Of a stretch of DNA of 64,000 bases, positions 5,300 through 51,689 are shown piece by piece. The translations under genes were made by a program, and so were the position numbers. Source of the stretch: Lytechinus variegatus (lineage: Eukaryota > Echinodermata > Echinoidea > Temnopleuroida > Toxopneustidae); contig NC_054742.1 in NCBI RefSeq assembly GCF_018143015.1, positions 54,259,195 to 54,323,194 of the forward strand, read 5' to 3'. The stretch's first letter is position 1; the number at the start of each line of letters is the position of its first letter. A model generated the notes under the pieces. The model was not told where the DNA came from. It did not search any database and saw only the letters and a list, made by a program, of their open reading frames with translations.

Positions 5300-8200
5300 C
5301 TGCAGATAATGAATCAAAACAAAGGACAAACATTAAGGTGGCGAACGAATAAAAGGTTATTTTCGCCATTCGTCATGTTCGTATTGATATGATGATGATA
5401 ATAATGATGCTGAAGGTGCTGATGATCATGTTGGTGAAAATGACGATTGCGATGATGATGACGGTGATGATGGTAATAGTTTGGTGAGAACAGTCTTTCC
5501 GTATAAGGCATATGTCATGTACAGTATCTTTACTATTAACACATTTCACAACCTTGCAAATAATTCATGACAAACTTAACAAGAGCTCATATCGTATTCA
5601 TGAACTAATGTAATTCATCATTGACAATGCTGAGTTGTAAGTAAAATAGTACTTGAATCTATGTCCCATTCACCTTAACCACATGGTTTAATCTTTATAC
5701 AGTCCTTTCACCAGCTACGATTGCCCCCCCTTCCGTCAACGTCTTTTATTACGTTTGGGATACGGTCTCAAGCTTAGCTAATTATTTACATGTAGATTAT
5801 AATTGGAAAACTCACCTTCATGGCGAGGACTTCTGGTGGGATGTATGGTTGAGGTAGACGTGGATTTTTTTTGAACGGATTAATCCCAATATGCCAGCAA
5901 CACAATCCAAGACCAATGATGAACATCACTTGGCAGAGAGTTATAGCTGACACGATCATACCGCCGGTTCGTCCTTTTCTTCTACTACCTGTATGAAAAA
6001 ATGGAGATGAGAAATAAAAAAAGATGAATGGGAATGTGATCATTTCTTTGATTCCTCGTAACTATTTCCATTTTGCGCGATGATTTGTACTATTTCTTCT
6101 CTCCAAGACATGGGTGAATATCTCCAATTGGCAGCTCGCCTATGACGTTTTGGATTTCTGCTAATAGTAAGTCGATATTTTATAGTCACGTTACCTTTTC
6201 GTGGAATAAAAGATGTACTGATGTTCAATCACAATAAGATTCGGAATAAAGATAACAGCCAAGTATAATGCAGTTAAACCCCTTATGTGCATCGTGTGTT
6301 TTTTTTGTGTGTGAAACTACACCCCAATCATACATGAATAATCTAAATAAATTGATTGATGCGAAATGCATTTGCTATTTTCCTTATTGCAATGTCTATG
6401 ATGTTAACCAAACCCTTTATTTTTACAATATACTGCCTATTGAAGAGTGCTACTCATTTTTCCCCTTTGATTGTCAATCATGGTGGGTCCAGGAGTGTCC
6501 AATCGGCCGCGTTTATCATTTGGCGATGTAATTCTTATCGATTTATCATTTTATGATGATCATGTAGAGTTATACCCACAGACTTAAGCCAGTTCCCCCG
6601 CCAAAACGCTTTGAAAATTTTAAATCCCTCAGAGAATGGGAGGGTGAGGGTATGGGTTGGTGTCAGTTTAGCAAGAATGATTGTGTACCTGATCTGTACT
6701 TACTTTCTGGAACGGCTGGTAGAGCAATCATTTCGGGTTCAGTCGTGGGTCCCTCTCCTCTCATATTTACAGCGCTCACCCAGACCAGGTAACTCTGCCC
6801 TGCTTCAGAGTTGATTAAGGTGTATTCTAATGGAATGTCTTCCTGCTCCTCTGTGGCGACAGTAATGTTTTCCACGATTATTTCATCTGCCGTAGAAAGA
6901 ATGCAAAAAAAACACAAATATTAAAAAGACGTATAAAAAATATAAAAAATGAAAATGAAGACGATTCTGACTTTCGTAAAATATTGCACAGAGCCAATAT
7001 TTGCTTCTCATGGGCATCCATCCTTGTGCTACAAACTTCTTTTGGTGGCACCATTATCTTTTTTTTATCTGATTAAATTTTCAAATTAATTAGATTATCT
7101 ATTTCTTATAATCTTTAAGCTGTAAAGCTTAAAGAATAAGCTGTAAGCTAGATTTCACTTTCAAATTTAAACATAACTTTGGTATTCAGTAATACTGCAA
7201 GTTATGTTTAAATTTGAAAGTGAAATCTAGCTTGCAAAATATAGTAAATAATATAAAATCGATAAGAGAATTTACCTAAGCAGAGATGAGATGCCCATTC
7301 CTGAGAGTCTCTGCTACTCCTGACAGAATCCCTAACATAGGTATGTGGATAGGACCCATTCAGTTCGCAGGAATAGATCATATAACCGAATATGATGCCA
7401 TTTTCTTCCATGGGGTCCACTGGAAACCATGTGACTGAGATCCAATTTGGATTTTCTGAAGATTCGTTCAAGGTGAGGTTTCGGGGTGCTGCTGATGGAG
7501 CTGCGAAAAAATAAAAAGATAACAATAATGATGAAATAGATCAAAAGATCCTTTCGTTTCCTTTGAAATAGATATGAGTAAAATCGATTGGATTTGTATC
7601 ATGCTATTCAGCATGTTAGCACTTAGTAGCACTTAGTGTTTCCAACAGTTTCCCAATTATCTGATTTGCACTTACGACTTATATTCATTATCGTTGTGCT
7701 CTGAAGACTTACCTATTCTACTCCTAACGAAAGTTAGGAAAGGGTGCATGGCTTGGACTTAACCTACTCTAGATATTGGTGGCGAATGTCAGGGATACGC
7801 CAAATTGATAAGCCTATTAAAAGGTAACCTGGATTTTACAATGGATATCAGTTACCAGCCATTTATTTGATAAGTCAGCCTCACAATATATACATGCGAT
7901 ACATGCCATGAATTCAAAGGTTACATGCAAATTTATGACGAAAAATATGAGATGTAAGTCCTCTATCTGAAATGAATGCCAAATCAGTTTCAACTGTTAA
8001 CAATTGTATAAGTACTTTAAGAGTACTACTAATCAGAACCAATTGCACCTTTTTCTCAGCCATGAATTATTAACATGTCGTCTATTTCAAGAACCTCAAA
8101 CAGATTATTGCTTCTTTGACGTTTGTGAAGCAATGATAGAAAGTATTAACATCGGTTTCAAGAATCAGGAAACAGAGGATCGGGAACTGTGAGGCACTAT

Positions 8201-11200
8201 TTAAAGAGCTAACGGTATGATTCAGAAGCTTTCCTTTATCATCTCTATGCATGTATATTGTTATCATGCATGCCTATATTTGATCTTGCTCTTCAAGACT
8301 ATATCGGCATCTCTAAATTTCGACTAAACAGCACTGATTATTCCGACAAGGTCAAAACACGTGTTAAAGTATTATCCTTATTCTTTACCCTTCTCTCCAT
8401 TACAGCAGGGATATAATATATTTTTTAAATAAGTGCTTAATTAAGTTCAAGATGATATTTATCTTTATCGTCATGATTATCAATATGGTGATAATTCTGA
8501 CACTATTCAAGCACGTGTTTAATGATCGTTATTTTGTTATCATTCTCTCCATTGCAACAGGGGTATACTATGGGTATATATTTACAATAGTAAGTTCGAT
8601 GCAGTTCAACTTTTTAATTTTTTATTTTTTTTTTTTTGAAATATCAACATTTATAGTAGAGGTTTATTTTCATTTGGTCTACAAGCATTTGGGATAAATC
8701 AATTTCGGAATTTAATCAAATTGTCGTTTGGTCTAAAATCCAAACGGTCCAAGTTGGCAATTTACAGAACATGTTGACGACGTCTATTTGCTGTTCTCTT
8801 ATACCCTACTCTTCATTCCATCAGGGATATGATCATTTCGGACAATATTGCTCAAAATCCATTTCACTTTAGTTTTGTAATGATCGCAACAATTCATCAG
8901 CAATGAGGGATATTCTGAAATTTTGATATATGTCTCGATCTTTTATTCAAATTTCTCAGTACTTTTATTTCCATATTAATTGCATCTTCCCGCAACAATG
9001 CACCCGTTGTTGTTGTTAGCTTGGGTTTTGAGGCGCGTGTCATTCAGATATGAATATTTACGCCATCTGAATTAGGTGTAGTCTCATCTTTGGTAGTTCT
9101 ACTAAAAACTTAAAAAAACGGGTTAAAGTTGTTATTCTCCTTCAGGTATTTGCGTGATTTTTGGCCTGAAAACTTCCTAGTTCATGCCTTTTTATGCTCA
9201 AGAGTACACAATGATCTGGTTTCTTTTCAGGCCCAGAGAGTAGAACTGGCCCTGTGTTGGTTCCAAGCTCTATAGAGAAGACCCCTCCCCCCAAAAAAAA
9301 ATGCTATTATATTTCTAAGAGACTATAAGCAATATAGGCAGACAGTGAATTGGCCACACGAAGCAGATTGTATTCAATGTATAGGAATTTAAGGTAAAAG
9401 CATTTTTACAAGAACAAGAACTTCACTCATAGCAAAATGCTAGTTATATGGCATAGCAATAAATATATGACTATGGTAGATGAAAGGGATTGAAAATTAT
9501 CCATACCTGTTGCTAGCGTTCTTGCTGTAACATGTTTAGACCATGTTCTCATATCATTTAGGTTTAAGTAAGTCGATGATGATACCATTACTTCATATGT
9601 AGAGTAAGACCTTAAGTCGCAGAGTTTGTAGTGTTGAGATAAAATATACTCCTCCTGGAAATCAAACATATGAAAATGCTATGAGGAATGTATTATGACT
9701 GAAATATTAATGCAGAGTAAATTGAAAATCATCTGTACAGCACAGCCATAAAAAACACTAATTACGAAAGGTGTTTCTTAATTCGACGCTTATTCATTCT
9801 CGCATTAATTTTGAAATGGAATTGACATTTATTTTACGCTGCTTTGCCACCTAAAAGAGAGAGATGAAAAATGAAGTACAATAGTCAGTGTGCTGTGGTA
9901 GAAGGGAGTACATTTCCCAATTTAAACTGATTTTGATGACTTTTGATACCAGCAAAAGTTAGACAACCACTCTCTTATCTCTTCTCCCAATAATACTTGT
10001 AAGAGATATTGCCGAAGCTCTAAATCGGTCCTCCATAAACGCAATTCACTTTTCCACATTTATGACTACACAAAAGACTGGGTTCATGTAAGTACTGGAA
10101 CTAAGAACTTCCCATGTCACCATACATGGGAAGGTGAATCTATGCCTATATACAGTGGAGAAAACTGCTGCCATTTTTCTTCCTAATCGGTTTTCACAAG
10201 TCATGCACTTAGAAGACAATAACATGAGGGCGACAATTTTTTTTTAATCTTGAAGCGGTTTTCACGATCAAAATCACGTTTGCATTACAATGATGTTTCA
10301 GAATAACTCCCTACATTTACCTGTTTGTGAATGGTAAAACTTACCTCGGTCCACTGTGAATCCGAGGTTGGATGATCCAGGTCTCGGAACCTGATTGAGT
10401 ATGTCAAGAACAGAGACCCGTTCATCCACCCAACAGGGTCCTTCCAGGACGCCGTTAAACATCCTGGCTCGAGTGCAGTTACGCTGAGATCAGTAACAGG
10501 ATTGGGACGAACTGTAAATGCAATTTGAATATGAAAATGTCTTACTACGGTTTTATTTTAACACCTATTGCTTAGGAAAGGAAATTGAAGTTATTACTTT
10601 CAAGTTTCATTTAGCATGTGGCCATAGTATAATAAATTAAGAAAGAATGATATCATAATTATCCTATAGTGATAATGGCATATGTCAGTACCTAAGCATC
10701 TCCATGCACTGATAATTAAATGCTTTGCAGGATGAAAGTAATCATTGTTAAAGGGATGAGCATGATTTCTAGTTTAAGAAGTGACCATTATTTAAATGGA
10801 AAATGGTTTGTGTCAAAATAGGCTGAACATGTTTTTTAAATTAAAAAAGTGATCTTTATCTAGATTGAAAATGGTTTGTGTCAAATTCAATCTACGTCCT
10901 TTCTGGTTAACATGGGTAGGTTGAAAAAATGTAGCTTTGATATTCTACTACTTGACAAAGCTCTGTCAAGTAGTCTTCTACTTGACAAAGCTGTGTTGGT
11001 TTTAGTTAATATACGAAGTATATTTGAAAGAAATGGGGAAAATGATTGGATACACCCAAGCCATTATTAAGATTTTCTCAAAATACTAGGGAAAACGAAA
11101 AATATGTTTTTAAATACATGTACTGAAAAGGTACCACGACGAACAATCATATGGCCTATATTAAAGGGCCCATCACTTACTAATTTCTCCGAAGTAAAAT

Positions 11201-14200
11201 GAAGACAGTTCGCTGAGAGACTTTCCCAGCACATTGGAAGAAACTACACGTATTTCAAATGTGTCATGACAGTCTTGACAGCTTGCTTCACATCTATTCT
11301 GTTCTGTACGCCTATTCCTACAGGTTCGCCAGGAATCTCTGGATAACGAGAAATTACAATTATGACTTGCAAATTCAAGTGTATAAAGCTTCGTCTTGAT
11401 TAGAAGTACTCACATACTAATACACCACTGGACACTACTTCTATAATTACTTAATTTTTCTATAATTACTTAATTTTAGTGAATTATTTCACCGAGTAAG
11501 ACTTGCTCTGATATTTAGCTGGATCTAGTAAAAAAAAAACTGCATGAGTTTGTTTTTGTTACCTGAGAGGCTATTGACCAGATTTATGAAGATATGATTA
11601 AATTTATCGCAAAATTGATTTTCTGTCCATTTTGATTTTCCATACGTATTTATGATGACTGAAAACCCGATTTATTTTTCTTTAAACTTCAGGAAATACT
11701 TTTAGTCCCCCATCTGTCTCTTCGGGTTGTTCTTTAACCCTTACGTACAGCTTTATCAAACAGTAAGTTGAGTATATGCACATAGTAACTGCGCTATATA
11801 AAAAGAAATATTATTATTATTTTCATTATTACTATCATTATTATTATTGTAATTATCAATATTATTATCATTATTATACTTAAAAATCAGCCAAAATATC
11901 GAGGGCCTTTAATACGTTGGACGGTTTTTGAAAATCAAACATGAGCGACTTAAGGGGGGGGGGTGTTCCAAATTGTCTCCTTCTAAAGGGATATAAACTG
12001 ACAGAATAAAATGAAATCCTGTTGGACAGGTATTCATTTGAAATTTTGAAGCACAATACTGACATCACGCCACCATAAAATTTGGGCTAACGGATTCCTT
12101 TTTCTGTATTAGATATATAAAATTTCCAGTAGATACAGATATCGTTTCGCAATTTTGCTGCTACTTAAATGTCAGTATTGATCCAAGGTTTGATATCTCC
12201 TTTCGAAATGTCCTGCTGCAAATTGATAAGCTATCTCACGATTTTTTTTTTATAACTTCGACCACATGTCATCTTCCGGATATTATTATTGTTGAAATAC
12301 CTGCACATTGTGACTGTGTAATATGAACATATTATAACCCCGATGTTTAAATCAACCTACTTTGAACCATAGAGCTATTATAGCTCCATGTTTTAACTAT
12401 TATCATAAATCGCTTTTATTATATATCACTCTTGCCAGGAATATGCAATTAAGAGCTATTGTTGGTTTACTAAAGTAGTACACTTTTGATGTAATATGAA
12501 GAGTAAGCTAGTGAAGAAGGAGGGATGTGGGTAAACCATCAATCATTCCTAAAATGCAAGTTTATAAGTAAGTGATTCATCGATAAGTGAGTTTGTTGTA
12601 CAATGAAAATATACTTACTCGTTGTATGGTTTGAACTCGAGTGTGTCTGTGACAGCTAGATTTGTAGTAGTGTGGTGGCGATTGTCCCATGTGCACCAAA
12701 ATGTTGTTAACGTTGGGGCCTCGCATGTTATATTGTCCACAGGTTGGGGTGGCGCTATAAAGGTGAGGGGAAGAGCAAATAAGTTCATTTCTTGTTACTT
12801 GCGCTATCGAAAAATCTCTCTTCCAGTGATTCAAACATTTATCCTATAAGGTATATGACATCATGGAGGAGTTGTTGTGCATGTGTGTGTGGAGGAGGGT
12901 ACCTGTGTGTGTTATTTGGGTATATAAGTTTATATTCCTGACATTACACCATTTAAAATTCTCTATGAATTGATTCAAACAAATACAAATATTTAGATAA
13001 AATGTATCAGGATGAGAGATCAAAATAGATTGAAATCAACGGAGAAAAGATAGACTAAGGAATTGGGCTAACTCGACTATAAAATATCTATATTGCAAGA
13101 TCTGTGGATGAACATGCACGGAACCATACCACACGGTTACAAAAAAGCTCAAGTAAAGAGTGATCGAAAGAATTATTTTGTGTATAATAATTTATTCTCA
13201 AAACAGGTTGTAAACAAACTCCACTCTTTAAATGTCTATATAGATGTAAGGGTCAGAGAAAAGAAACCGGGTTTTTTTTTGGTCACGACTTTTGTAAGTA
13301 TTTCACAACATTATTAGTTTTACCCAGCTTTAATACATGAATGCAATATCTTTAAGTACATTGTTTTTAGAGTGCTGTGGTGATGACCCGGCCTAACTAA
13401 CTGGAAAGATCGCGAAAAGACATAGCTCATCAATAAGAAAATATATATTAGTCTAAAATAAATCGATATTCAATCAAATCAGTGTGAATGTTGATTTGGC
13501 AAAAACCCTCTTAAATGAGCCATAAGTTAATTTAACATAATGGCAATTAAACACCCGAAAGCTATAGGAGACAGAAATCCTGCCAAATGATATTTCATTT
13601 GAGGAACTGACTACATATTATTATTGCTACAAATTGTGACGTTTCTGTACAAAATTGATGACGTTTAAAGGCTTCTCGGCTTATGTTATAAATGTTTTTT
13701 TTTCTTTACTCTACCAGCACCCTGTCTGCAGTTTTGAATGTTCATGAATTTTAGAAGATATCTTGCGGGGCAGCGATAGGGGAATTGTGGAGATAATTTT
13801 CCAGATTTAATTGATTGAATATGAAAGCTTCTATCATTATCCATCGGGGATCATCTAAAAACCAAATAATTCCTGCACCAATATAACACCGCTATATGTG
13901 TTCATAATAAATAAATAAACATTTTTGACAACTAGTGTTTTATTATACTAAAAGTCAGGTCGGTGAAGGACATTTAATGTATCCCCCCCAAAAAAAATGA
14001 AAGGGCAAAGCTTTTCCTATGAAGTCCGCTTCTTACGATTCGAAAATCTACGCAATACTGACACATTATAGCGGAAGATAATTCATATAAGGTACATAAT
14101 TGGTCAAACTTAACATTCATATTGCATTTTTAAATTTAGTTCAGCTTTAAAATTTTAACAACTTCTATTGCTTTGCAAGATACCCGTAGAAACAATTTGA

Positions 14201-17200
14201 TATGACAATACACAATCTGGTCATAAACTTCATTATTCATGTTGATTTTATGTAAAAAAAATGTTATGTAATATTCATTATTGTACCGGTAGAGGAGGGT
14301 ATTGAGAATAAACTTACAAAATCCCAACCTTCCAAACATAAAAGTTGTTTTGCGGTAATTTATGGATGAAATTTTGATTGCTTTGTTATCATGAGATCAT
14401 AAAACACCTTTCAAGGACTTGATAAATAAAACATTTGGCAACCTAAAATGTTTGTTACTGTATCCAGCGGCCATGGAACAGTTTTGAAGGTGCGGTATGC
14501 CGAAGTGGGGGCTTACAATGCAACACCCCCCCCACACACAGTCAGATCGTAATTATTTATGTCTTTGTACACGTTTATCGGAAAAACGTGGGGGCTGGAT
14601 CTCTGGGCCTCCCAACCCTAACCCCCCCCCGTTTCAGCGGCCACTGGTATCGATGTATTAACCTATATTTTGAGAGCAGCTATGAAAATGAACACATCTT
14701 TATATCGATTTGCTATATAGGTTGTACAACATTGAAGAGTATTGTTTCTCTCTATATAGTTACTCAATTGATTTAGCCAGTTAAAGACCTGTTTTATCCA
14801 GCAACACAAATTTCAATTCATATGCTTTTGTCTGGATTGATTAATCAATACATCGAACATACAGAGATAACTTTGGTCAATCATAATTTCTTTACTATTT
14901 ATCTTTTCATTTATTTATTTGTTTATTTACTCAATTATTTGCTTCTTTAATATATTTGTTTTTCTCACGGAGTGATTTCTTTCTTCCTGTTAAATTTCTG
15001 CAATGTTTTAGCTAGTGATAAAACATTACATTCAATAAAGTGTCTGCATTCAACACTCAGCATGGAGCAATGCATTTTGTGGTTGGGTTCACAAACAATT
15101 GAGCTCAACTGTATTATGTATATGTTGGAGAAGCAAGCATTTGTGATGGACAGTGCAATATAAAAGTTAAAAATGAAATTTCATAATTTCACAAAATGAA
15201 GAAAAGGGTGTAAGCGCACAGAAACGAAAGCCAGATAAATAACAAAGAATGACATGATGATGGATTGGAAATATATAACAAATAAAGTATATGAATAAGA
15301 GCATGAATACATTTTGTAATTAGCTGCATATAAAAATTAGAAAATAACATTCTAACAAATTAGAAACCCTTTCCACAAAATTCAACGGCTATTTCGATGT
15401 AGCCCTTTTATAGAGGTTACAATCCTTAATCACAATACAGGGTTTTTTTTCAATCCCCAAAATAAATAATAAACAAACAATTTCTTCAAGTTTATATAGT
15501 ATTTATATGCAGCTACTTCAGTTTCGTTACAAAGTAGGTCTAACGGTAAACAGACTGTATAGAGTACTAGTATTTTAGAAAAAGATCTAATATTTTATCT
15601 TGTCTGATTGTCCGTTGAAAACACTCACTTTTTATTTCTTATTTCCATCCGTCTTTTTACTTAATTTTTCATTTTTTACCAAATAAATTGGGTCATTAAC
15701 TTACTTCCGATAAACACGTGGACGCCTGGCCTTCTCGACCGATCGTCATCATCTTTGAATTGGCAGTAGTATTTTCCCGCGTCTTCGATTGTGACATTAT
15801 GCAAATGAAGAAGTGACGTCGATGCATTGGGCGTGGTGTACTGAGATGCTGGGATAGGGGTGGAGCCTTTTCTCCATTGTATTGACTGAGATGATCTATT
15901 CTCATTCTTTCCGTTATGAAGGGTGCAGGAGAGAGTAAGAGAACTTCCGACCTGGATTTCAGGGTCTATAGGATCGAGTGAAGCTAGAGGGACAAAGATA
16001 AAGAAAAAATGGAGAGAAAGGAAATTGATGAGAACTAAAATAAGCATTAATCCGTTAAGTTGATCTGAAATTCAGGGGGGGGGGAAAGATAGACAAATAT
16101 GAGAGAGAGAGGGGGGAGAGAGAGAGGAATAGAGAGGGGATGGGAAAGAGGTTTGGAGGATAAAAAGGTGATGAGGTGGATGAAGGGTAATTCAAAAACC
16201 AATATTGGTTGTACGCTGCAATAAATGTCGATGTCAGACATTATGTGGACTATGGAGTAGTTTGATCAAATTTACCTGACTTTTCCAAGGCAAACTGAAC
16301 GTTTATTATTAAATCCTTCTATTCATTTTATCTCTATGTATTTTCTTGTAAATCGAATAGATTGAAATAATGATAATGAAAGGAACAATAATAAAAATTA
16401 GATAAGTCATAACTTTTCTTTTTTTAATCATGAATTTTGACTTTTGACTTTCAGCCCTTACTTTTAGAGAGAGAATAGCTTGTTTTTATTATTGAATTAG
16501 AAAAAAAACCGCTTAGATACTCTCTTTATAGCTTCAACTTCTATGTATCTAATACTAGTACTTCAGAAATTGGGTGAAGCATAATTCTCATTACCGGGTT
16601 CCTCGGAGAAGACCCAATGCCGTCGGGCAACCAAAGGAACCGACGCCTCGGCCCTCTGGTTGCTTATCGACATTTTGTACTTTCTTAGCAGTCGAGTGAA
16701 ATAAAAACCAATATCCTACTCATTAATGGTGTTAAGAGGGAGTCGAATTCCCAACACGGATTGGGATAGTGGTAGCAAAAAGTACGTTCACTACCTGTTC
16801 CTGAAATATCTAACTTATAACAATGCAAATACCGAGAAGAATTCATTTCGAAGGATTGTTCGCACGAATAATCATAACATTGACCTCTATCTTCATTTCC
16901 AGTATTAACAACATGATATTCCTTGACAGAATGCATCATAAAATACCAATATCATGAATACCACGTGTGTACAAGCTGTCACAGACGACGTTGTGGTTTA
17001 GTTGGGTGTTTAATGCTAAGAAAACTGGTCGTAATCTCGTAATGTTGACGGACAATTAAATTTTCCGTATGGAAACATCAATTTTATTACATGCAATTGT
17101 CATTTCTAATTAAAGCCATAATGATGGACTGCACTTTTAAGGTAAATGGCACAGCGGTTGTTTTAGCCATTTTTCTATATTCGAAAACGTACATACTTTA

Positions 17201-27333: not shown

Positions 27334-28594
27334 AACGACAATACGTATATCACTTTTCTTACCAGCATGTGATACCACCATGATATTGGTCTACTGCAAA
27401 CCTCCTTCAGTCTCTTCGGCCCAGCAAGCAGTAGATGCAGACTGCACAAGTCCCTCTTCACTCATATGTCTTGAAGAATTAAAGAATAGCTGGCAAAATG
27501 TTCCCCACTTTTAGTTGGAGTAGATCGATCCTCAATTCATCTTATCTTTGGGATCAATGGCACAAAACTAATAAAAATTCTTTGAAATACAGCCCCTCTT
27601 CATGCGCATACCGCTCAAGAGACAAGGCTAATTTCTTTTCCTTTCCAGAAGTATACACCCTTTTGTAACTGTGCATGTTGTCTGTTATAGAGGCAAGGAG
27701 GCGCTCTCGACTTAATTGTTTTGGTCATTTTTTTTTTCTCCGTGCGTAAAATTTCTTTTAGTAATATACTGGTAGTATCAGCATGCAGTCATATTAGAAT
27801 CCGGACTTCACGTTTGCTGGTATCTAGCCAGGCTGATTTTTACTACACACGCTATCTCCTCCGATAGATCAGGATCTTTTGTTTTGTACGGATGATCATG
27901 GACCTACTTTCTAGTGTAGCTCTCCATGATCAAATTACAGTTTACTTTTTGAAGTGGTTCCTGACTTTCGTCATTATCACTTCAAGGTGAGATCTATCCA
28001 ACCTATCCACCTTGAAGACAAGTGTGTGTAATAACATGATAATGGAATATGATTATGGTATATATACCTGTCATTCTAATATCCTTAAAGTAAACAAAAT
28101 AAAGGATTATCAACACGGTAACATGCATCTACGCAGTAATGTTTAGCCTGCTATATGGAATATGATGTGATTCTAGAGGTTTATTTTATGGGGGTGGGGA
28201 TTGATATCAAAAATATACCCCACATGCACGCATCTTGCACGAATAGCCCATTGAGCTGTATCTCCCAATTTTTTTTATGACCTAAGTCCTAACTCCATAT
28301 ATTCTTGCTGGATATTCGACAAACCGTTTTTCATCATTAATTTTTTTAAATTAACTTTATTTCAGTACTTCTGGGGGGGGGGGGGCACCAGCCAGTACCT
28401 CCACATTCACAAACCACAAACGGCTGGTATATGCCATTCGAGGTTTGACCATAAAAAAACGAATAATATATTTCCTAAACCCGAAACGGAGGTATTCTCA
28501 CAAGATAATCAGGGGTTTACTGCAGACTTAAAATAAAACAATCTTAGAAGATATTTCATATATGGGATGATACACAGAAAGTTTTCCAATACTA
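26331..28594. other. Gene-free stretch with a TA microsatellite
   Basis: AT-rich sequence with T/G homopolymers near 26646-26672 and a (TA)n run at 27276-27331. No supported gene. The open frames here lack splice context or homology I recognise. Confidence 0.55.
27276..27331. repeat. (TA)n microsatellite
   Basis: A continuous TA dinucleotide run of more than 50 bases. Confidence 0.95.
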
Positions 28595-39247: not shown

Positions 39248-39336
39248 ATGGCATATAGTATGTATGTTTATATGGCCATGACCATGGTGTTCATAGGATG
39301 TGGTGCTAATGTCTTCTTCTTGGAGCTTATAGTGAG
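39248..39336 (+). CDS. SLC35B4: SLC35B4 exon 1
   Basis: Residues 1-29 plus two bases. First helix: VFIGCGANVFFLELIV. The donor is AG|GTGAGA. Confidence 0.88.
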
Positions 39337-42300
39337 GTGAGAATGATACACTTCAGAGTTCAAATAATGTTTCCAGATCTGAATTTTCTTGATTTCTTTA
39401 ACAATATACATTCAAATACCAGTATCGTGTTTTCTTAAAATCCAAATTTTATTGTTCGAAGTAGACACCAGAAATGAAATACTCCAAAAATTTGTTTTGC
39501 CCAATTGATCTTGGGCCCGGCAGCAACTGTGCAGTGCCAGATAGAAGAGGCTTTATCCCTTTAATTGTAGAACGCCAAACAGGGTAGCAGCAACACCCAT
39601 CTTTTAACGTCTTTAGGTCTGACGCGGCCGGGGTTTGAATCCCCGACCTCCCGGTTGTGAGACGGATGCTCTACCAACTGAGCCAACACACCGATTTTTG
39701 TTTGATTTATCTTATCTGCCCCCCCCAAAAAAAAAAATCTAAATTTTATTTCTTATCTCTTCTTTTTATTGTAATTTATCTGCTACGTTACCCTCATTTT
39801 CCTACATTTTTTTCATTGATTAAATTTTTAAACTAAGGAACGTGTAAGTTCAGCAACCATTCATATAGGAAAGACTGGCCACTATGTATAAATGCAATTT
39901 TTTGGCAATTAATGAAAATCTTTTTAGGAAAGTAATGGTAGTGGTACTAAAAGGTTAATATTTTTATGTAACCTTTGCTTAAAGAAATGGTTGCATATTG
40001 CTCATTCTGAATGATTTTGTGACTTGAACTTTGAAAAAGTCCGGCCACCCCTGACTCACTTTAAATATTGTAATTGATATTGAATTAGCAGCGGAAGCTG
40101 CAGTGAATTTGACTTTGAATCATGGACAGAGATACTAACTGCCTTCATATTTTGCTTTGACTTCTAATCAGTGAATATCCTGGAAGTGGCAACATTATTA
40201 CATTCGCCCAGTTTCTTCTGATAGCTGTAGAAGGATTTGTTTTTACCTCTCAATTTGGGACAAAGAGACCCGTTATCCCTATCAAGTAAGTATGATGTAA
40301 TCAATGTTTTCTCATACCCCTTTCATAAACCCATCCTCCAATTATCCACCTAAGAGTAAATGCGTTCATAAAGTCAAAATCTGGTCCCGATGCTGGTATT
40401 ATGCGGATAATTGCAGCTTCGAAATAATGTGGATAACTGTGGTCCTCCTCCGATTTTACGACCGGATTATGCTGCTATTATCCGCATAATTGGGTTTATG
40501 AAAGGGGGTATTATATAACCTTTGAGGGTCTGCATAGTGGTACAGATATTATGGGAGAGGTTCATAGTTCACCAAGTGGTTTAGTCTCTTAACCGGCTGT
40601 CTGTACTTTGAAAATAAATGAATTGAACTGAATAGTCCTGAAAAGGTCTGTTGAGTGGTGGATTGATAAAGATAAAAATGGAAGGCGAGAAAGATGATAT
40701 TGTGTAGTTTCTTCCATGATGTAAGGTGTAGTCCTTAAAAGGACCGTGAACTAGATGAAATTGAAGAAGTGGATGAGTTGAGATGAGAAGTACTGGTGGT
40801 ATTGAGTGGAAGACGAGTATATAAGCAGAGTAGATTGGTGACGAGAAGATGAGCAACGAAGAGTAGTAGCAATGAGGTGTCTTGACTTCCTGGGCAGCTT
40901 GACGGTCTGTCATCATTAATCATCATTTTTTCTTTACATACTAACATGCAATCGTTTGATTTATTGAAATTACCCTAGGTTGTTATCAAAATAATCTCAC
41001 TTTATCTGAATGGCCTTTTTTCTTTTTAATCCATATTTTGATGCAGGTACTACTTTATAATGGTGGCATTCTTTTTCTCAACAAGTGTCGTGAACAACTA
41101 TGCACTCAACTTTAAAATATCTGTTCCTCTTCATACTATCTTCAGAAGTGTAAGTATGTTGCAATTTTATTTGAAATATGAGAAATGTACTATATAAGTA
41201 AACTCAATATGTATTATTCTCATGATTGAACTATTGTTTAATTCCAGATTAAAATATTTGTAAAGCCATATTTCTATTGAATTCCAAGTTTAATCGTCAA
41301 TATTCAAGATAACATACTATATAATTATTGAATTTGTGTGTATCCTCACATTATCCTATTCCTTTGATAGATTGCTTGATATAATATTTTCTTGATTAAT
41401 GAGGTGGCATATTGCATTCCATAAAAGTGTGGTGTAAATTAGCCTAGTGTTTTCTAGACCATTGCTATGAGGACACCACCCAGTATGTTTTCTTGTAACT
41501 TTAGCTTTTTTATGTACATGTAGATTTAAGATCCTGTATCAAAGTAGGAACATTTTTCAGATCCGTTAAACAAAATGATTATTGACATGTATTTTTCTTA
41601 AAGAGAAGCATGCATACTTTAAATGAAGCAAAATTTTGTTTCTCTTAACTTTTAATTAAATCACTGTTCTTTGCTTAGTCCAAATCATTGTCATTTGTTG
41701 AGTCCAAATTTGATTCTTCTTTGTCAATGTATAGGGATCTCTCATAGCAAACATGGCTCTTGGTATAATCATCTTACACAAACGGTGAGTTGTTGATTTC
41801 TAGAATTCTAAACCGTGTAGCAGGGTGCTACATAAGCACTTGTCTGATTGCCTGGGGCAAGTAAAAGTTATAGTCAGGCAATTGTTTTGAAGTAAAGACC
41901 AAAATTACTTGCCTGAATTGGGCAAGCAAAATTCTCACAGTAGAATGACCAGAATTAGGGTCGATGATATGATACTGAACCTAATTTTGGTCATGGCAGG
42001 CAAGTTAAAATCACTTTGGAAAAAGAAATGCAATAACAAGGTAAATTAGTTCATGTCAAAAGATAAAACCGCAAAACTTTCTTTTGAGGTAAAGCTTTTT
42101 TTTTCAAGGATTTTGGGGGGCAAGTATTTTCAAACTATTTAAAAATTTACTTGCCCGACTGTGCAAGTGCTTCTAAAAAGTTATGTGTAGCACCATGGTA
42201 ATAGATACAATTATTAGACTCTTTGGTGATAGACAATCTAGGATTAGACCATGTGATATTAGACCAAACAGGAAGTAGACGAAGAAGGTTTAGACCAAGT

Positions 42301-45300
42301 GGCAAGTAGTTAGTTACCTTGATTAACCCATTGGAAACTGACTGACTTTGCTGTAACATATATGTTTTCCATCGACTCCAACCCGTGGGCACAATCTCCA
42401 AGGGGGTTAAACCAATATCATGCTGGCAAATGCTTTGAAGTACCCTTCGACTGTCACAAGGGCAAAACTAAGTCATCCATCATCATTTTAAGACTTCAAG
42501 TTTTGTTTGAAATTAAATTTATTTATCCTAAAATGTCATTTCATTCTGAATATCACACGTTTGATCGAGATCCACTTCTTTGGTGAGGACTTTGACTGTT
42601 GCACTAAGAAACGAGTCTACATTCTTATTCTTCCCTAGAGTGTTTTCATAAAGTCTTAGCATTTGATTCAAAAGAGAAATATGTTCATAAAAGAGGCAAG
42701 GTACTGGTAGGTTATATGCTTGCAGTGAAAAATTAGAATGACACTTTTCAATCACTTCTAAAACCAGAGTTGAATACCACATCATTCTTTTGCATTCAAT
42801 ACAAACAAAGTTGAAAGATTTTTTTTCAGCGAGGTAGTGCTTTTATTCTTTGCATTTTTTAATTTAAAATTTATGTTTTCTATATTTTTTTTAAATTCCT
42901 ATGATAGATATTCTCCTTCCAAATATGTGGCTATATTCATGATATCAGCAGGAATCTGTCTGTGTACCCTTATGTCGGCCAAGAACATAGTGAGTTGAAA
43001 ATATTCTTTTAATGAATTTAATGTTTAAAGGATTTTAGTGTAAGGTCCTGTAATCATGTTAGTAGGGGAAAGAGGATAATTCCAATGAAAAAAGACATTA
43101 AAGTTCTTGAACTTGATCACAATAGTGGTGAAGGGGTATGGTCCAGCTGAGTAATATGGAAAAAAATTATTATTTTAATATCATCTAAATAAAAATTGGA
43201 GCTAATGTAACAAGATAGTAATTGAATATTTCACCTCCTCTCAGGTTTATCAAGAATCTTAGCCATCAGCCTCCTGATCATTAAAAAAACAAAGCTGGCA
43301 AAATTATTAGAAAAAATGAAATTGATAAAGCACGAGTTTTATAATCCCAAACTCCTTGTGCAAAATTCTCATTAAATGGGAGATGAGAAACATGTAGAGA
43401 AATTATTTTTTACTTTATCATATTCATCATTTGGTTTTACATGTGTAATTACTTTATGATATAATTTACAGTGTAAATAATTCTGTAGTCACTTGTATTT
43501 TCTTTTCAGCTTTACCAAAATATATGTATCAGTCATGATATGCATGATAGATCACATCACAAAGAAATGTTATCAATCTAAAAAGCACATTGCAGGAATT
43601 GGTAATTGTTTTGAAGCATCCACACAAATTCTATTTTTTCAAAAATTATTCCCATACCTCCCCCATTAGTGGATGAACATGAACACAATTGAATCTGTCC
43701 GAGTATTCACCGTTGGGTCATGGTGATTGTTTTACCGGTATTTTTTTAAAGCATGGTGCTCTATATGGGATCTGTTTATACATGTATATTGAAATGATTT
43801 GAATTTCAGGGTAATGAAGATCAACCCAAAACGGAAGGATTTGATTCCATGTCAGATTTCATGTTGTGGATAATAGGTAAGATCTCTTCTATGCCTTCCC
43901 TCCTCCCCCCCCTCATCCACCTTTTCCTGTTTCTGTTGTCTCTCTTTCACTTTCATTTCTACTTTCCTATCTCCCCTCTCTCTTTCTCTCTGCACCTTTT
44001 TCCAATCATTATCTTTTGTAGATGCATTTAATATGTGTGTAATATACTTGACTTTACCAATCACGCCTAGAATGTCTATATGTAGTATACTCAAGGGCTG
44101 GACTCCCCTTTATGCTTCAAATTTAATTTTCAGAAGGCAAAAAATGTCCTCATTCCCTTTGCTCTTTCTTGATGCTGTTAGAAATGTTCCCACATTTGCC
44201 ATGTTGTGCCCCCTCAAAGTGTTTTGTTTATTATGCCTTGAAGTAATGTGAATCATTTTATACATTTCTAATGAAAATAATGAAATGAATAAAAGACAGT
44301 ATTCTGCAGCAGTAGTATGAGTATAATTTTCAAACACTTGACAATGAGAGATCACCCTTTTTGTGCACTCTCAGACAATTAACGTATATATGATTCTCAT
44401 TTTCTCTCACATCATTCTCACGGGAATGCAGACATTTGATATTTGATCAGGGATGTATGTTAAAGCTTTTAGGGAATGGGGAGAGGCAGCAAACAGACCA
44501 GACGAAATCCTTTGTGTATAATCTCTGCCTTTGTGTGTGAAGTATTGTGTGTGTATCTTCAATTGATTGTAATCCAACTGACTGCAGATTGCTTCGTCAT
44601 GCAACAATGAGCTGATTGGTTCAGTTTGTACTCAGCAGGTAGGGTCCACACAGAGACATAGGGGCCCAGTTTCATTTCTACTGATGGTGGATGATCCCCC
44701 CCCCCCAAGAAAAAAAACAAACTAAACTACAAAACAAAAGACAAACAAAAAGAAGAAGAAAAAATGTAAAAACATAAGAATGGAAAAGGCAGTGAACATG
44801 CTATAAATGAATGAATCTATTGAGATTGTTCAATAATTAATCATTTGGCTCAGTATTATATAAGTGTTGGCCACTCCAAACAAAGAAGGTAGATTTCAGT
44901 CATTGAAGACTACGTAATGTGTCAACATGCCTTCCCGTGTTTCATACAGCCACATATGAAAACATTCCTTCCCTCATGATTTCATCATGAAATCAATGGA
45001 AATACAGCCATTGTTAGATATAATAGAACATACTCATTGTGGAATGGAGGGTTTCTCTTCAGCATGTGTTATGTATTATTAATGCAATGTTCTCTCTCTC
45101 ATCAGGTTTGTGTATGTTGACCTTTGCCCTTTTCCTGTCTGCTCGCATGGGAATCTTTCAAGAGACACTTTACAAAGCCCATGGCAAACACCCCAGGGAA
45201 GCCCTCTTCTATTCAGTAAGTAGTCACATGACACTGATTCCTATGCACTTTGATCCCACACATATACAGGAACTACAAATAAATTACGTTGCTGGGAATT

Positions 45301-48300
45301 GAATGTTAACAACATTAATGAATACTTATAATTTAACACTAGTATAATCTTACAAAAAAAAGTTAATGTCCATATTTTGCTGAAAATGTTGAACATTATA
45401 AACCTCTGGGTTATATGTAGTAGTTTATGTACATGTATCTTTGCTGGCTCTGTGTAGGATGACTTTTAATATATATGCTACAAAAAAACACTTATTCAAG
45501 ATTGTGATTATTTTGATACTCATGAAATAAAAGTTGTGATTTCTAAGAAATTTTAAAAATCTGTCCTACTTGCCTTTATTGCTTAATATTCTTATTTGTG
45601 TAGTTTAGTAATGGGGGCTTTTGACTTGTTTCTCTTGGAAAGTCGCAGGTGAAGGGTTGATGAAACTTGCGATTATCACAATCTTTGAATAGGTTGGATA
45701 GTTATGGGTGGAGCTTCATGCACACTAGTGAACAATCATATATTGTCCAATTATCTATTGACCAATGGTAATTAGCGGGTGTGGCAACAGTGATATGAAT
45801 ATTCACAAGCCCAATACTCTGTATTAATTCTGCTCGATAGGCATTTACATGGAAAAACAATCCAATGTTAATATTCTCTAAGTCAATTGTGAATGTGACT
45901 AAACTCTTAAAATGTTAGGACTTCTTGACAAGTACCTTTGTAGATTAAATGACATGTATTATTCATTTTCATATCATAGAATATTAATGTGTACATTTAT
46001 TTTCTTCAGTGATGTTTCCTATTTGTTTGTATATCATGCCCATCAAACCCCATGATGGGATATTTCAATTAAATTGACTGGTAGATCTATACAAGAATGC
46101 AGCTATTATTGATTTCTTTCGTGCTAGTTTAATAGTTGTTTACGTACGTTTGTTTCCTACGAAATGGGAATGAAATTAGTTTATTGACCACACTATGGTG
46201 ACCGTCCAGTTTTCCTCTTGGCGTTGGTCAAAATTCAATGAATTGACATTATGTAGCTTTCCACAGAAAGAACGCTTGAAATATCATGGTTATCTTTACT
46301 TAACTAACATCTTTCTTTTGAAAAGCATACAAAACCGCACATTTGCCCTCATACAGGCCCCAAAAGTGCAGACCAGTATAGGTTGAATCTTCTGAATTGT
46401 TGAGAAAAAAAGTACAAGAAGTGTTTTAAACAGAAATACTTGAACTCACTATCCTATCTTGTGAAGCAGACCAAATTAGGATGCACACCATAATATCCTA
46501 TCATCTGAGAGAAATCAAACTGATGCGTAGTTCATGCAGTAAGGGTACCTTGATGGTATCCCTTCATTTCCTTGAATTCTAAAGACTCATAATATAAAGT
46601 ACAATGAATAAAGAATGAATGAAAGAACAAGAGATAAGAGTGTCATAAGACCTTCTAATGATAATCATCAGCAGAAATCATTCAAGTTTTTTTTTTACAA
46701 GTGCACACGTAAGTATAAAAATGCATAAAGCATTTTCATTTATTTGATGCACGATAAAAGAGCTATGTTTATATATACTACTCAGTAAAAGAATCGAACC
46801 TCGGACTTTCATTGTGTAGCTGGGTGCCTTAGACCACTCTGTCATGGTACCACTCCAAAATCATTTAAGTTGATTATTGTTGCCTATAAGACACAAAAAA
46901 ATGACCAACCATCTCTCCTATCATTATGGGTACGGATGCGGTTCACACACATTATAAAATACATTAAAAACGATACAGCAAATTTTGTCTTTATTGAAAA
47001 TGAAAGCATGTCTTTTTATGTAACTTCAGATAGAGATAGTCAGCTGTGTATAATACTTAATATGATAATTATTCTTGTTTGTTTGATTCCTACTTTCTTT
47101 GTTCCAACAGCATGCATTGCCTCTTCCTGGGTTTCTCCTAATGGGTAGAGATATCTATCATCATGCTGTAATGTATAGTGCTACAGGTAAGTGGCTCCAT
47201 ACAATGAACTGAAGACCTAAAGGCCTGTTTTCTGTTCAAAGTCATAGGCCATGGTGTAACTCTGTTAAAATTATTCAAGTCATTTCAATTCAGTTATTTT
47301 TATTGTCATGTTCAATAAAAAAAAAAACAATTGTCATCAGACTCCTAATAACAAAAAGTGCTTAGGAACAAAGAATAGTCAATCACAAAACCATTTCAAA
47401 ATTGCATTGAAGTTATGAGCATTCTTTCTTTAGTTGGCTCTTTCCTCATGTTTTGAAGACAAAGAGAACTGTTGTAGTAATTATCCCCACTCAGTTGTTA
47501 ACGATCTGGATGAGCTTGTAAATTGAACCTGTACTGTTAGAGATTTGTTTCACGATTGGCTACCCATAGTTCACTACAACTTTAGACCAGAGTAAAGATT
47601 AAACCAGAGTTCAGAATATGGGTCAAAGTGAATAGGCATGAGTGAGATGGTGATAGATTTTGCATGAGGAGAAAGAAAGATGCCCTATTAGAGTGTCTCT
47701 TTCTTTCACCGAATGCGAAATCTCGCACCATTGCATGAATAAGAATATTCGCTATTTGTGTTGTACAACGCCTCGTAATTTAGCAAAAATATGAAACAAC
47801 AAGAGTTTATCCCTGGAGTAATCTATGAAAAGGGAGCAAAAATACTGAAAGCTGGAAGCAAAATCCCACAAGCGCACATGACCTTGGGCAGCATTGCAAA
47901 TTTAGCCAGCAGGCTTATACGCGTATTGCACCTTCATTTTTACTGAGCGCAATGAATTAAATTGTATTGTGACGTCACCTCCTAAAGCCGTGCAATGGTA
48001 CATTTTGGACAGTACATTTTGGATGGTACGTCTTTTGTGCAACGGTACGAATGTTTGACATTCAGCCTCCCATTTGCTCACGTACAACAAGCTAAGTAGG
48101 CGTTGTGCAAGAGCTAAAATTGCTTGGGCAATATTGTTTCTATGATGAGGGTTACCATCATTCATCATTGGAGGTGCTAGAAATTTCTAATGGGACCAAA
48201 AAATGGAGGGGCAAACTGTAATATGATTATGTCTTCGTCTGATCAAGCGTTTTGGTACCACCAGTGTTTTGGTACCAAAAACTAGTATCATGGGGGAAAA

Positions 48301-49705
48301 GAATACACGAGTGTTACATTTTAGGGTAAGTTTGGTGTTTGGCTTAATGTACAGATTGTGCATGAGGGCAGTAGTCACTAGATCAAGACCACAATAGATA
48401 TCTAAAGTACAAATCTTCTGCTATGTGGATAAATAAATATGTTGGTATATTACTGTCTTTGTAACATGGTATAATGGAAAGCATTTATTGTAATTTTATA
48501 GCCTAGTTAATCCATAAATTGTTAATTAATATGATTACTTCCACATGTCATATATTGTGGTAAAACACTCATTGAATTTACAAGAATTTCTCTGAAAAAA
48601 AGACTTTGGCATTGAATAATTGACAACTGGTGGTTACCTTTTTTGTGTTAAGGTGTATTCGTATGTGAATTTGCAGGTAATGCTGACTTTTTTATTAGCA
48701 CCATTTTATGACTCTACCAGTATTATTTTACGTGTGGTATGCAGTGTCCGTTTCAAATGGACAACCTCATTTAACCTTTCCTTTTGTTAATTTGTTTCTT
48801 CATGTTTATTATTCCAGAACCTATTGTGGTCGGTCTTGGAATAGCTATACCAAAGATGTGGCTTTATCTAATTGGAAACATGCTTACACAATATCCTTTT
48901 TGCTTCATATTTATTGGCTTAGAATGTATGAACTAAGAAATAGAGCATGTTTTGGTCAGAGCAGTATTTGGGAGAAAATACTGAAATATAATTCAAGTCA
49001 GAATGGGAGGGGGAGGGGGGGGTAGATAGTAGATGGTATATGGAATTGAATAGAAAGAAATGTAATGTGGAAGTGAATACTAAATATTAGGATAAGGGGT
49101 TAGGGGAAATGAACAAAAGTGAAATCTCGAATTAAATTTGAAACTTCCTTCTAGATGAATATATAAGAGAAGGATGGAAAAAAAATAAAAAAAGAAAGTG
49201 AAATAAAAATAAGGATGCAAGCAAAATATCTTGATACTACAGCCTTCTGCGAAGAGGAAATTCAAAGTAACATTTCATCATCCTGATGGAATATAATAAC
49301 GTCAAATCCAAGACTGATATATAAAAATGTAGTGGCCATAGATTGTGGAGTGAGCACTGCCCTATAATCTGTTGGAAGAGGAAGTTGATGTGAGGAGGGT
49401 TGATTTTGTAGAAAATGTTATTTCCTCCCTTAACCTTTGACCTTACGTATATATGCATTCGCAGTGTGTTCATCCTGACCTCGGAATGCCCATCTCTCGT
49501 CACCACCCTAGTCGTCACCCTCCGCAAGTTCATCAGCCTCGTTGCTTCCATCATTTTCTTCCAAAACTCTTTCACCCTGTTGCATTGGTTAGGAACCACC
49601 ATGGTGTTTGGTGGGACCCTTCTTTTTACCGGTGTCCTCCATCAGTTGAAGGATGCCCTCTTTGTGAGACCACCACCTGCATCTCAAGACAAGAAGACTG
49701 ATTAA
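39248..49705 (+). CDS. SLC35B4: SLC35B4, UDP-xylose/UDP-N-acetylglucosamine transporter (10 exons, 340 aa)
   Basis: A nucleotide-sugar antiporter of the drug/metabolite transporter superfamily with about ten membrane helices. It brings UDP-xylose and UDP-GlcNAc into the Golgi/ER lumen for glycan synthesis. Ten exons join in frame to 1023 nt. The product is close in length to the vertebrate protein (about 331 residues) and matches it along its whole length: NVFFLEL, EYPGSGNIITFAQF, VVNNYALNF, PLHTIFRSGSLIANM, LMSAK, ARMGIFQETLYK, HALPLPGF, TLVVTLRKF and FTLLHWLGT. The C-terminus SQDKKTD ends in a KKXX dilysine signal, which fits recycling to the ER. Nine introns: eight GT-AG and one U12-type AT-AC. 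The start ATG gives an N-terminus a few residues longer than the vertebrate one. Confidence 0.95.
39510..39692 (-). mobile_element. tRNA-derived SINE in SLC35B4 intron 1
   Basis: Reading the minus strand, the head has an A box, GGCTCAGTTGGTAGAGC, and a B box, GGGGATTCAAACCCC, at tRNA spacing. The body continues with GACCTAAAGACGTTAAAAG. The lower-coordinate end is approximate. Confidence 0.7.
40172..40285 (+). CDS. SLC35B4: SLC35B4 exon 2
   Basis: Residues 30-67 plus two bases. EYPGSGNIITFAQFLLIAVE is near-identical to the vertebrate block. The acceptor is TTCTAATCAG and the donor AA|GTAAGT. Confidence 0.93.
40314..40511. mobile_element. Second copy of the ATACCCC-TTTCATAAACCCA MITE, in SLC35B4 intron 2
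   Basis: TIRs ATACCCCTTTCATAAACCCA and TGGGTTTATGAAAGGGGGTAT. The interior GCTGCTATTATCCGCATAAT is shared with 28595-29122. A single-unit copy without the tandem duplication. Confidence 0.8.
41047..41149 (+). CDS. SLC35B4: SLC35B4 exon 3
   Basis: Residues 68-102, with SVVNNYALNFKISVPLHTIF. The acceptor is TTGATGCAG and the donor AGT|GTAAGT, phase 0. Confidence 0.94.
41735..41784 (+). CDS. SLC35B4: SLC35B4 exon 4
   Basis: A 50-bp exon, GSLIANMALGIIILHK, too short to stand out as an open frame. The acceptor is ATGTATAG and the donor CG|GTGAGT. Confidence 0.93.
41823..42197. repeat. Inverted-repeat element in SLC35B4 intron 4
   Basis: GGTGCTACATAAGCACTTG at the left is mirrored by GTGCTTCTAAAAAGTTATGTG-TAGCACC at the right, and ACTTGCCTGA / TTACTTGCCCGA recurs between. 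A short MITE with imperfect TIRs. Confidence 0.6.
42908..42989 (+). CDS. SLC35B4: SLC35B4 exon 5
   Basis: YSPSKYVAIFMISAGICLCT then LMSAKNI. The acceptor is CCTATGATAG and the donor ATA|GTGAGT, phase 0. Confidence 0.93.
43810..43876 (+). CDS. SLC35B4: SLC35B4 exon 6
   Basis: GNEDQPKTEGFDSMSDFMLW, an acidic loop of low conservation followed by the next helix. The acceptor is GAATTTCAG and the donor G|GTAAGA. Confidence 0.88.
44082..44250. repeat. 170-bp dispersed repeat, copy 2, in SLC35B4 intron 6
   Basis: Nearly identical to 37671-37842 and in the same orientation; a few substitutions and short indels separate them. Confidence 0.85.
45106..45215 (+). CDS. SLC35B4: SLC35B4 exon 7
   Basis: LSARMGIFQETLYKAHGKH and REALFYS, the best conserved block of the family. 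The acceptor is CTCTCATCAG and the donor TCA|GTAAGT. Confidence 0.95.
45216..47110. other. SLC35B4: SLC35B4 intron 7
   Basis: A 1.9-kb GT-AG intron. Apart from a tRNA-like segment at 46786-46856, I see nothing in it. Confidence 0.6.
46786..46856 (-). repeat. tRNA-like segment, SINE head or tRNA pseudogene
   Basis: On the minus strand, ATGACAGAGTGGTCTAAGGC (A box) and GAGGTTCGATTC (B box) are about 35 bases apart. I could not close a full cloverleaf, so a working tRNA is unlikely. Confidence 0.5.
47111..47186 (+). CDS. SLC35B4: SLC35B4 exon 8
   Basis: HALPLPGFLLMGRDIYHHAV, aligned to the HALPLPGF block of the vertebrate protein. The acceptor is TTCCAACAG and the donor G|GTAAGT. Confidence 0.94.
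47513..47625. repeat. Partial copy of the GGCCCGTATTCTGAAG MITE
   Basis: The right half only: TTGAACCTGTACTGTTAGAG, ACAACTTTAGACCAGAG and AGTTCAGAATATGGG match the right end at 23545-23644. Confidence 0.65.
47643..47735. repeat. Hairpin MITE in SLC35B4 intron 8
   Basis: ATGGTGATAGATTTTGCAT and GAAAGAAAGA pair with TCTTTCTTTC and ATGCGAAATCTCGCACCAT. Confidence 0.6.
48818..48890 (+). CDS. SLC35B4: SLC35B4 exon 9
   Basis: EPIVVGLGIAIPKMWLYLIG then NMLT and the first two bases of a Gln codon. The acceptor is TTATTCCAG. It ends at ACACA, directly before the AT-AC intron. Confidence 0.92.
48891..49446 (+). other. SLC35B4: U12-type AT-AC intron of SLC35B4
   Basis: The 5' site is ATATCCTTTT, an exact match to the U12 AT-AC consensus. 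The 3' end is CCTTAC, with a branch-site-like CTCCCTTAACC whose adenosines lie about 13 bases before the acceptor, the normal U12 spacing. Splicing here joins CA|G to give Gln and yields TQYICIRSVFI, which matches the vertebrate protein; no GT-AG alternative does so. Phase 2. Confidence 0.92.
49447..49705 (+). CDS. SLC35B4: SLC35B4 exon 10 (last)
   Basis: YICIRSVFILTSECPSL, TLVVTLRKFISLVAS and FTLLHWLGTTMVFGGTLLF, then a short tail and SQDKKTD with TAA at 49703-49705. The final three helices of the transporter. Confidence 0.95.
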
Positions 49706-49751
49706 CAATTGAGCTTCATGGTGAAACTGTTCTTAGATTTTAGTTAGCTTT

Positions 49752-49876
49752 ATGGTGTTTGGGGATACCCTTCTTTTTACCGGTGTCCTCCATCAGTTGA
49801 AGGATGCCCTCTTTGTGAGACCAACACCTGCATTTCAAGACAAGAAGACAGATTAATGGTTGAGCTTCTTGCTGAT
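49752..49876 (+). pseudogene. Tandem duplicate of the end of SLC35B4 exon 10
   Basis: 125 bases that repeat 49601-49725 at an offset of 151. Across the 105 coding bases I count six substitutions and no indel; frame and TAA are kept. It lies after the real stop, so it is untranslated as things stand. Confidence 0.9.
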
Positions 49877-49920
49877 TGTAGTGCCTTGTTTCCTGAACAT
49901 ACTTCCATTTTAAACCATTT

Positions 49921-49959
49921 ACTTATGCTACATAAATACTGTACTTATGTAGCATAAGT
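49921..49959. repeat. Perfect 15-bp hairpin
   Basis: ACTTATGCTACATAA, nine bases, TTATGTAGCATAAGT. Confidence 0.9.
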
Positions 49960-51689
49960 AAAAGGTTTACAATACAGTGGCAGTTAGTGCTGTAACCGGC
50001 AAGTGAAAACCCGATCCGTACTGACCCTTATAATCCAATGATTTGCAGGCAGGACCCGCTGACCCGTTTGGTTGGAACCTGGGGTTAATCATATAATCTA
50101 AGTCTACCATGGGCACTCACTCAATCACATGTGTTCACCATGATGTGAGTGATATCCCCACACTGTACAAGCTCACATCTGGAAAATATTTTCCAACTAA
50201 AGTTGGAGTGAAATCACTTCCAAAATCACCGATTTAACTTTAATCCAGAGTTCTGGGAGTGACATTGTACGATGAAATGGGTCTTCGTCGATCTCGTAAG
50301 CATTGAGCAGTAACTCTCAGAGCCAATTTAAGAATCACCGATTGCAACAGTAATTATTACTATTTACGAGTTATATGCTGGTACACAATGTGCTGCAAAA
50401 ACAAGCTCCTCAAATTGGCAATGAAATAATAAAAAATCAATGGATATCTTCAGTGGCAGTATGTGTGACCTATATGGTAGGCACTTATGAGGCTAGTGTA
50501 CATTGAGGCGGTATTTGGTGAACTGAGCTCGCGGGCCCACACAATGTTCACAAGACAAAAATACCCCATTTTTTTTTAAGGAAACGTAAGCATCTCTACA
50601 AGAATCTACCATGTAAGAAACACAGTATCTTGAGTAATCCGAACTCAGTTTATTCCGTTTGTGTGTTTTGAATATTTATGTGTGTGTCGTGACTTCTCCC
50701 TTTTTCATACCTGTGCTACAGCTATAATCTGCGGATTTGAAAATGAACTCGGAACTCAGCCGGACCTGCAACCCGCATTAGGGGCATACCGGCAGGTTTC
50801 ACTGTACCACAATGGGGTACGGTTTGCAAAACCAGTGCCAGTCCTTTACAGTTTAACCCTCAACTCTTTACGGAATGCAGCTCTATGGGCTTCAGCAGGT
50901 CTATTGTTTGGTGCCAAATGTTGACAAAGTGCTTACTCGTCTGAAACATCCTAGATAGTACACTAGATAGTACTGTATCAACTCACATCCTTAATTGATG
51001 GCATAAATATCTTGTATCACATGATTACCTTTTGAACATTAGTACAGCAAGATTTCTAGTATGTGAAATATAAAAGATTGTATCACTCATTGACAGAGTT
51101 GGATGATATTAAGGAGAAATTAAACCATTGTAATTGGTTGAGTGAACAAAAATATTTGATATATTGAATACTGTAGGAGAATACAGAAGATAATGTGAGT
51201 GTGCCTACATCAGATCATTTAAACCACTGACATTATTTTGTGAATGTCACTTTTCTGTGAAACCAAACAAAAAGTGAAAAGCCATGCAAAAATTTCTTAT
51301 GTTGACATGCAGATGAAATTTAATTGATATACTGATTTATTCATATGAACCTATTGTTGGGATGGACCTTGTTATTTCTCTAGTGCAAAATCATGTTCTA
51401 AAGTCGACAGAAATCTCTGACAGCAAATAAGGAGAACTTCTATTATACCTTCATGATTATGGTGGGAAGCCCGCTAGCTCAGCTGGCAATTCTGAAAGTA
51501 CTTTTAAGACATCACCGTGCATTCTCATAGGATTGAGCACTTAACCTCAAAAGTGTCTTGGTCGGGTAGGAATGATTGCTGAAAATAATTAATCTAATTA
51601 AGATTTGTCAATTTATGTATATTTTTCCAATTAAATGGGTATGAAAGCATATGCAGTCTACCAAAAACATTAATATACATATAACCAGG

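Follow-up and report, generated by a model that had tools for sequence, protein, structure and literature searches.

A putative U12-type AT-AC intron preceding the last exon of a probable SLC35B4 gene in Lytechinus variegatus

In the window (the whole stretch of 64,000 nucleotides of Lytechinus variegatus DNA that we analyzed), the last intron of a probable SLC35B4 gene, intron 9, is almost certainly a true U12-type AT-AC intron, as judged from its sequence. Such an intron had been proposed in a preliminary description of this DNA, and the proposal is borne out by the donor, the branch site, their spacing and a unique junction register; no acceptable GT-AG alternative turned up in the range that we tested.

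The host gene and the position of intron 9

Our exon model comprises 10 exons on the plus strand of the window (39248-49705), whose joined coding sequence of 1023 nt is translated into 340 amino acids followed by a stop codon. The C-terminal 172 amino acids of the gene product match the Pfam family UAA (PF08449) with 185 bits (cut-off 26.2), and the predicted protein is a member of the UAA nucleotide-sugar transporter family. The gene is probably SLC35B4, a name that rests on a working copy of the human sequence, with which the predicted protein shares 192 identical residues out of 329 aligned, in a comparison limited to SLC35B4. A search of the PDB returned three distinct sequences, each of them SLC35B1, with a weak match (22.9 bits over 51 residues). 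When this human protein was used as a tblastn query, nine of the ten exons were matched, all but exon 6. The features of the gene model, all on the plus strand, are as follows.

39248..39336, plus strand, SLC35B4 exon 1, from the ATG (exon model, tblastn)
40172..40285, plus strand, SLC35B4 exon 2 (exon model, tblastn)
41047..41149, plus strand, SLC35B4 exon 3 (exon model, tblastn)
41735..41784, plus strand, SLC35B4 exon 4 (exon model, tblastn)
42908..42989, plus strand, SLC35B4 exon 5 (exon model, tblastn)
43810..43876, plus strand, SLC35B4 exon 6, the better of two candidates, without tblastn match (splice sites, frame, required W)
45106..45215, plus strand, SLC35B4 exon 7 (exon model, tblastn)
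47111..47186, plus strand, SLC35B4 exon 8 (exon model, tblastn)
48818..48890, plus strand, SLC35B4 exon 9, ending in phase 2 (ACA CA) (exon model, tblastn)
48891..49446, plus strand, SLC35B4 intron 9, putative U12-type AT-AC intron, 556 nt, phase 2 (exon model, motifs)
48891..48899, plus strand, candidate U12-type 5' splice site ATATCCTTT, 9/9 to consensus (motif match)
49426..49434, plus strand, candidate U12-type branch site TCCCTTAAC, 8/9 to TTCCTTAAC, with A49432 or A49433 as candidate branch A
49444..49446, plus strand, 3' splice site TAC (sequence)
49447..49705, plus strand, SLC35B4 exon 10, including the stop codon (exon model, tblastn, own-genome search)

A genome-wide search with the last exon yielded two matches, the exon itself and a partial copy 3' of it. 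The 3' end of this exon is part of a direct repeat (49601-49724 and 49752-49875; 113 of 124 positions identical, 151 nt apart); the first unit spans the last coding part, the stop codon and the start of the 3' UTR, and in the second copy the frame is still open up to a stop of its own. An inverted repeat with arms of 33 nt (91% complementary, 1 nt gap) lies at 49907-49973, in what is probably 3' UTR or flank. Within intron 1, a tRNA-like match on the minus strand (39620-39692; 33.5 bits, cut-off 29) is possibly a tRNA-derived repeat. Elsewhere in the window, exons on the minus strand at about 3734-16071 may belong to a cell-surface receptor with Ig and FN3 domains: five Ig families and Lep_receptor_Ig scored above cut-off at 15679-16071, and an fn3 match at 6666-6920 fell below it. 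The family scan took in ten stretches of the window, and eight of them gave no match.

Splice-site motifs, junction register and alternative readings

The 5' splice site of U12-type introns conforms to (A/G)TATCCTTT, and their branch site, which lies close to the 3' end, to TTCCTTRAC. We scored both motifs as plain match counts to these consensus strings, in place of a published weight matrix. The borders of intron 9 read TACACA|ATATCCTTTTTG ... TTTCCTCCCTTAACCTTTGACCTTAC|GTATAT, and the letters and coordinates of the preliminary description agree with ours: exon 9 ends in TTACACA at 48890, the intron starts with ATATCCTTTT at 48891, CTCCCTTAACC occupies 49425-49435, the terminal TTAC lies within a CCTTAC that ends at 49446, and the joined exons 9 and 10 read MLTQYICIRSVF. 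Introns 1 to 8 are all GT-AG, and intron 9 is the only AT-AC intron among the nine. Its donor matches the U12 consensus at 9/9 positions (3-5/9 in the other eight introns) and the U1-type consensus (AG|GTAAGT) at 2/8 (5-8/8 in the other eight). Branch-site-like sequences in these eight introns reach at best 5-7/9, the value of 7/9 being found in introns 1 and 3.

The candidate branch A is separated from the end of intron 9 by 13 nt (A49433) or 14 nt (A49432). A spacing of 13 bases had been described before; it holds if the count starts at the second branch A and runs up to the end of the intron, but the CTCCCTTAACC block itself ends 5 bases before CCTTAC. PMC3584512, a review, gives 11-13 nt as the optimum distance between branch A and 3' splice site of U12-type introns, names the 5' splice site and the branch site as the defining features of the class, and describes these introns as being without a distinct polypyrimidine tract. 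Pyrimidines occupy 12 of the 16 positions before the 3' end of intron 9, in a stretch that overlaps the branch site; since the other eight introns have 7-13, pyrimidine content does not set intron 9 apart.

The preliminary description had also relied on the exact restoration of the encoded peptide. The AT-AC junction does restore TQYICIR, but so do five junction registers in all, and restoration alone therefore cannot fix the junction. Homology limits the junction to these five registers and recognized termini, AT-AC, are present in only one of them, so that the AT-AC register is unambiguous. We then compared the 48891/49446 pair with other in-frame, stop-free pairs (GT-AG, GC-AG, AT-AC, AT-AG and GT-AC; length of at least 50) with donors at 48840-49349 and acceptors at 48950-49539. 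Judged by the score against the human segment, the AT-AC pair was the best of 67 alternatives (173 vs. 157 for the next). An in-frame AG is present at 49462-49464, 18 nt 3' of the AC end, and its use would drop six conserved residues.

Three other readings of the junction were weighed. A conventional GT-AG (U2-type) junction elsewhere, which would make the AT-AC motifs a coincidence, could draw on GT dinucleotides within and beyond exon 9 and on the in-frame AG (CATTCGCAG, 49464). We consider it very unlikely: among the 67 in-frame, stop-free pairs of the tested range, no GT-AG or GC-AG pair had a U2 donor of at least 6/8, none ranked among the 12 pairs most similar to the human protein, and the donors of the other eight introns score far above the 2/8 of the AT-AC donor on the U1-type scale. 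Slightly less likely still is that the major spliceosome removes intron 9 as an AT-AC intron. U2-type introns of this kind are on record in PMC3584512, and 85 major introns of the AT-AC or related subtypes are tested in PMC8280824; the donor of intron 9, however, is a perfect U12 consensus almost without U1 complementarity, and its duplex with the human U1 end has an energy of +1.0, as compared to -5.7 to -13.2 for the other eight introns. AT-AC termini, moreover, account for at most 0.07% of U2-type and for 8-47% of U12-type introns (in the listed animals that have such introns) in Table 2 of PMC7367187.

The remaining reading, to which we assign the smallest likelihood of the three, joins the AT donor to the AG at 49464, either constitutively or in a minor isoform lacking six residues. 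Splicing to this AG would keep the frame and leave the product open (NMLTHVFILTSEC), but the conserved YICIRS would be deleted, the branch A would lie about 31 nt from the AG, and AT-AG combinations are described as disfavored in PMC3584512. We thus rejected the U2-type GT-AG junction, the U2-type AT-AC intron and the AT-AG acceptor 18 nt downstream on the basis of the pair scan, the donor scores and the U1 duplex, and retain the U12-type AT-AC reading.

The expectation by chance was assessed on 200 sequences simulated with a first-order Markov model of a single strand of the 64 kb window; a pair was defined as a donor with a branch site of at least 8/9 plus YAC lying 60-5000 nt downstream. 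The mean per simulated strand was 0.725 for donors and 3.465 for acceptor ends, and 35 of the 200 strands held one donor-acceptor motif pair or more; in 64 kb, the motifs alone would therefore be no proof of an intron. The chance that such a pair falls at one of the five peptide-keeping registers is about 3e-9 (product of per-position rates), a rough figure because the match thresholds were chosen after the sequence had been seen. The improbable part is the placement of the motif pair at a junction defined by homology and not the motif pair itself. In the window, ATATCCTTT occurs once when both strands are searched. Further exact U12-like motifs are GTATCCTTT at 22716 (minus strand), ATATCCTT at 28079 and TTCCTTGAC at 16919, each inspected in its sequence context only.

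Minor-spliceosome genes and the predicted splicing of intron 9

We searched the animal's own genome (869.6 Mb, 33 contigs) for the minor-spliceosome snRNAs. Loci scoring above the Rfam gathering score were found for U12 (at least 5, 103-114.6 bits, 5/5 confirmed by cmscan), U11 (at least 6, 101.6-110.8 bits), U6atac (at least 1, 135.3 bits) and U4atac (at least 3, 86.9-90.6 bits); these counts are lower bounds because only the best candidates were scored. The same searches for U12, U11, U6atac and U4atac gave no match in any of 14 control genomes, a weak control if these are prokaryotes. In the window itself, Rfam recorded no snRNA and only the one tRNA match. A CTAAC motif near -60 precedes all 11 of the U11 and U12 loci (in the form CTAACC in 9 of the 11), and TATATAAGG is found upstream of U6atac; these upstream boxes fit what we would expect of working snRNA promoters. 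The U11 and U12 genes (L003-L013) are multicopy loci spread over several contigs, and one U12 copy (L007, 103 bits) is diverged in its 3' half and does not show the CTAACC form.

Contig C8 holds four pieces matching CCDC84 (CENATAC) in a stretch of about 31 kb, the best with 78.7 bits. Two of the four (L015 and L017) contain one TAG each, perhaps at points where the match extends beyond the end of an exon. According to PMC8280824, CENATAC promotes the splicing of AT-AN minor introns, and its depletion affected 92% of A-type vs. 24% of G-type minor introns. The claim made at the outset, that the organism has active minor splicing, is strengthened by the U11, U12, U4atac and U6atac genes and the CENATAC pieces of its own genome, but the presence of genes is not activity.

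For pairing calculations, U11 was represented by L008 (one of 6 loci), U12 by L003 (one of 5) and U6atac by L014 (the single locus). With each of them, intron 9 gave the duplex of lowest energy among the nine introns, namely -5.4 (U11), -6.8 (U6atac) and -12.0 kcal/mol (U12), the next best introns reaching -3.7, -3.3 and -9.5 kcal/mol, respectively. The U12 duplex picked by the program for intron 9 is not the canonical branch-site pairing. When the human U11 end was paired with a donor longer by one base, intron 1 came to -5.0 and intron 9 to -5.4; U11 pairing discriminates only weakly among the introns. Taken together, the duplex energies lend weak support to the U12 class, and the weight is carried by the donor sequence itself.

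Under the U12-type reading, U11 would pair with AUAUCCUUU at the donor of intron 9, and at the branch site U12 would pair with UCCCUUAAC. U6atac would take the place of U11 at the donor, and the branch A would attack the donor. Exons 9 and 10 would then be joined at ACACA|GUAUAU, restoring the Q codon that the intron interrupts in phase 2 as well as the conserved TQYICIR. Because intron 9 is AT-AC, CENATAC would probably assist in its splicing. In conceptual translation, the frame of a transcript retaining intron 9 reads TQYPFCFIFIGLECMN, the 15th codon after TQ being a stop, and we infer that retention would yield a protein lacking what the last exon encodes. The earlier notion of control over the last exon by minor splicing is valid only in the trivial sense that this exon cannot be joined until intron 9 is removed; any regulation is presumptive. 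It is improbable, in our estimate, that intron 9 acts on SLC35B4 as a regulated or rate-limiting step, at which retention would produce a truncated transporter and so couple sugar-nucleotide transport to minor-spliceosome (CENATAC) activity.

Comparison with known minor introns

Since AT-AC introns make up about 26% of human minor introns (PMC10639083), the kind of intron found here is unsurprising; in the listed animals that have U12-type introns, the AT-AC share of 8-47% cited above was reported. A search of main texts found no paper linking SLC35B4 with a U12, U12-type or minor intron, and SLC35B4 may well be present in published minor-intron lists. In a search for relatives, a peptide pattern was matched by 10 stretches of viral_contigs and 170 of genome_contigs, neither of which is an animal collection, and none of these matches was confirmed. 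Intron 9 is a sound but ordinary example of an already known kind of intron. Its description adds a well-supported AT-AC minor intron for a transporter gene, in a genome that has all four minor-specific snRNA genes. Gene predictors limited to GT-AG introns would miss the junction of exons 9 and 10, leading to a truncated or distorted protein annotation.

With U12-type AT-AC introns, intron 9 shares the donor ATATCCTTT, a branch site near TTCCTTAAC, the short distance between branch site and intron end and the AT-AC ends, as well as a phase other than 0 and its position as the single such intron among the GT-AG introns of its gene; it departs from the consensus by one mismatch in the branch site. 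The AT-AC termini are also those of U2-type AT-AC introns, from which it differs in that donor and branch site fit the U12 and not the U1/U2 class. By its AT-AN termini and its U12 donor, intron 9 resembles the CENATAC-dependent A-type minor introns of humans (PMC8280824), and the animal's own genome has the CCDC84 gene pieces described above.
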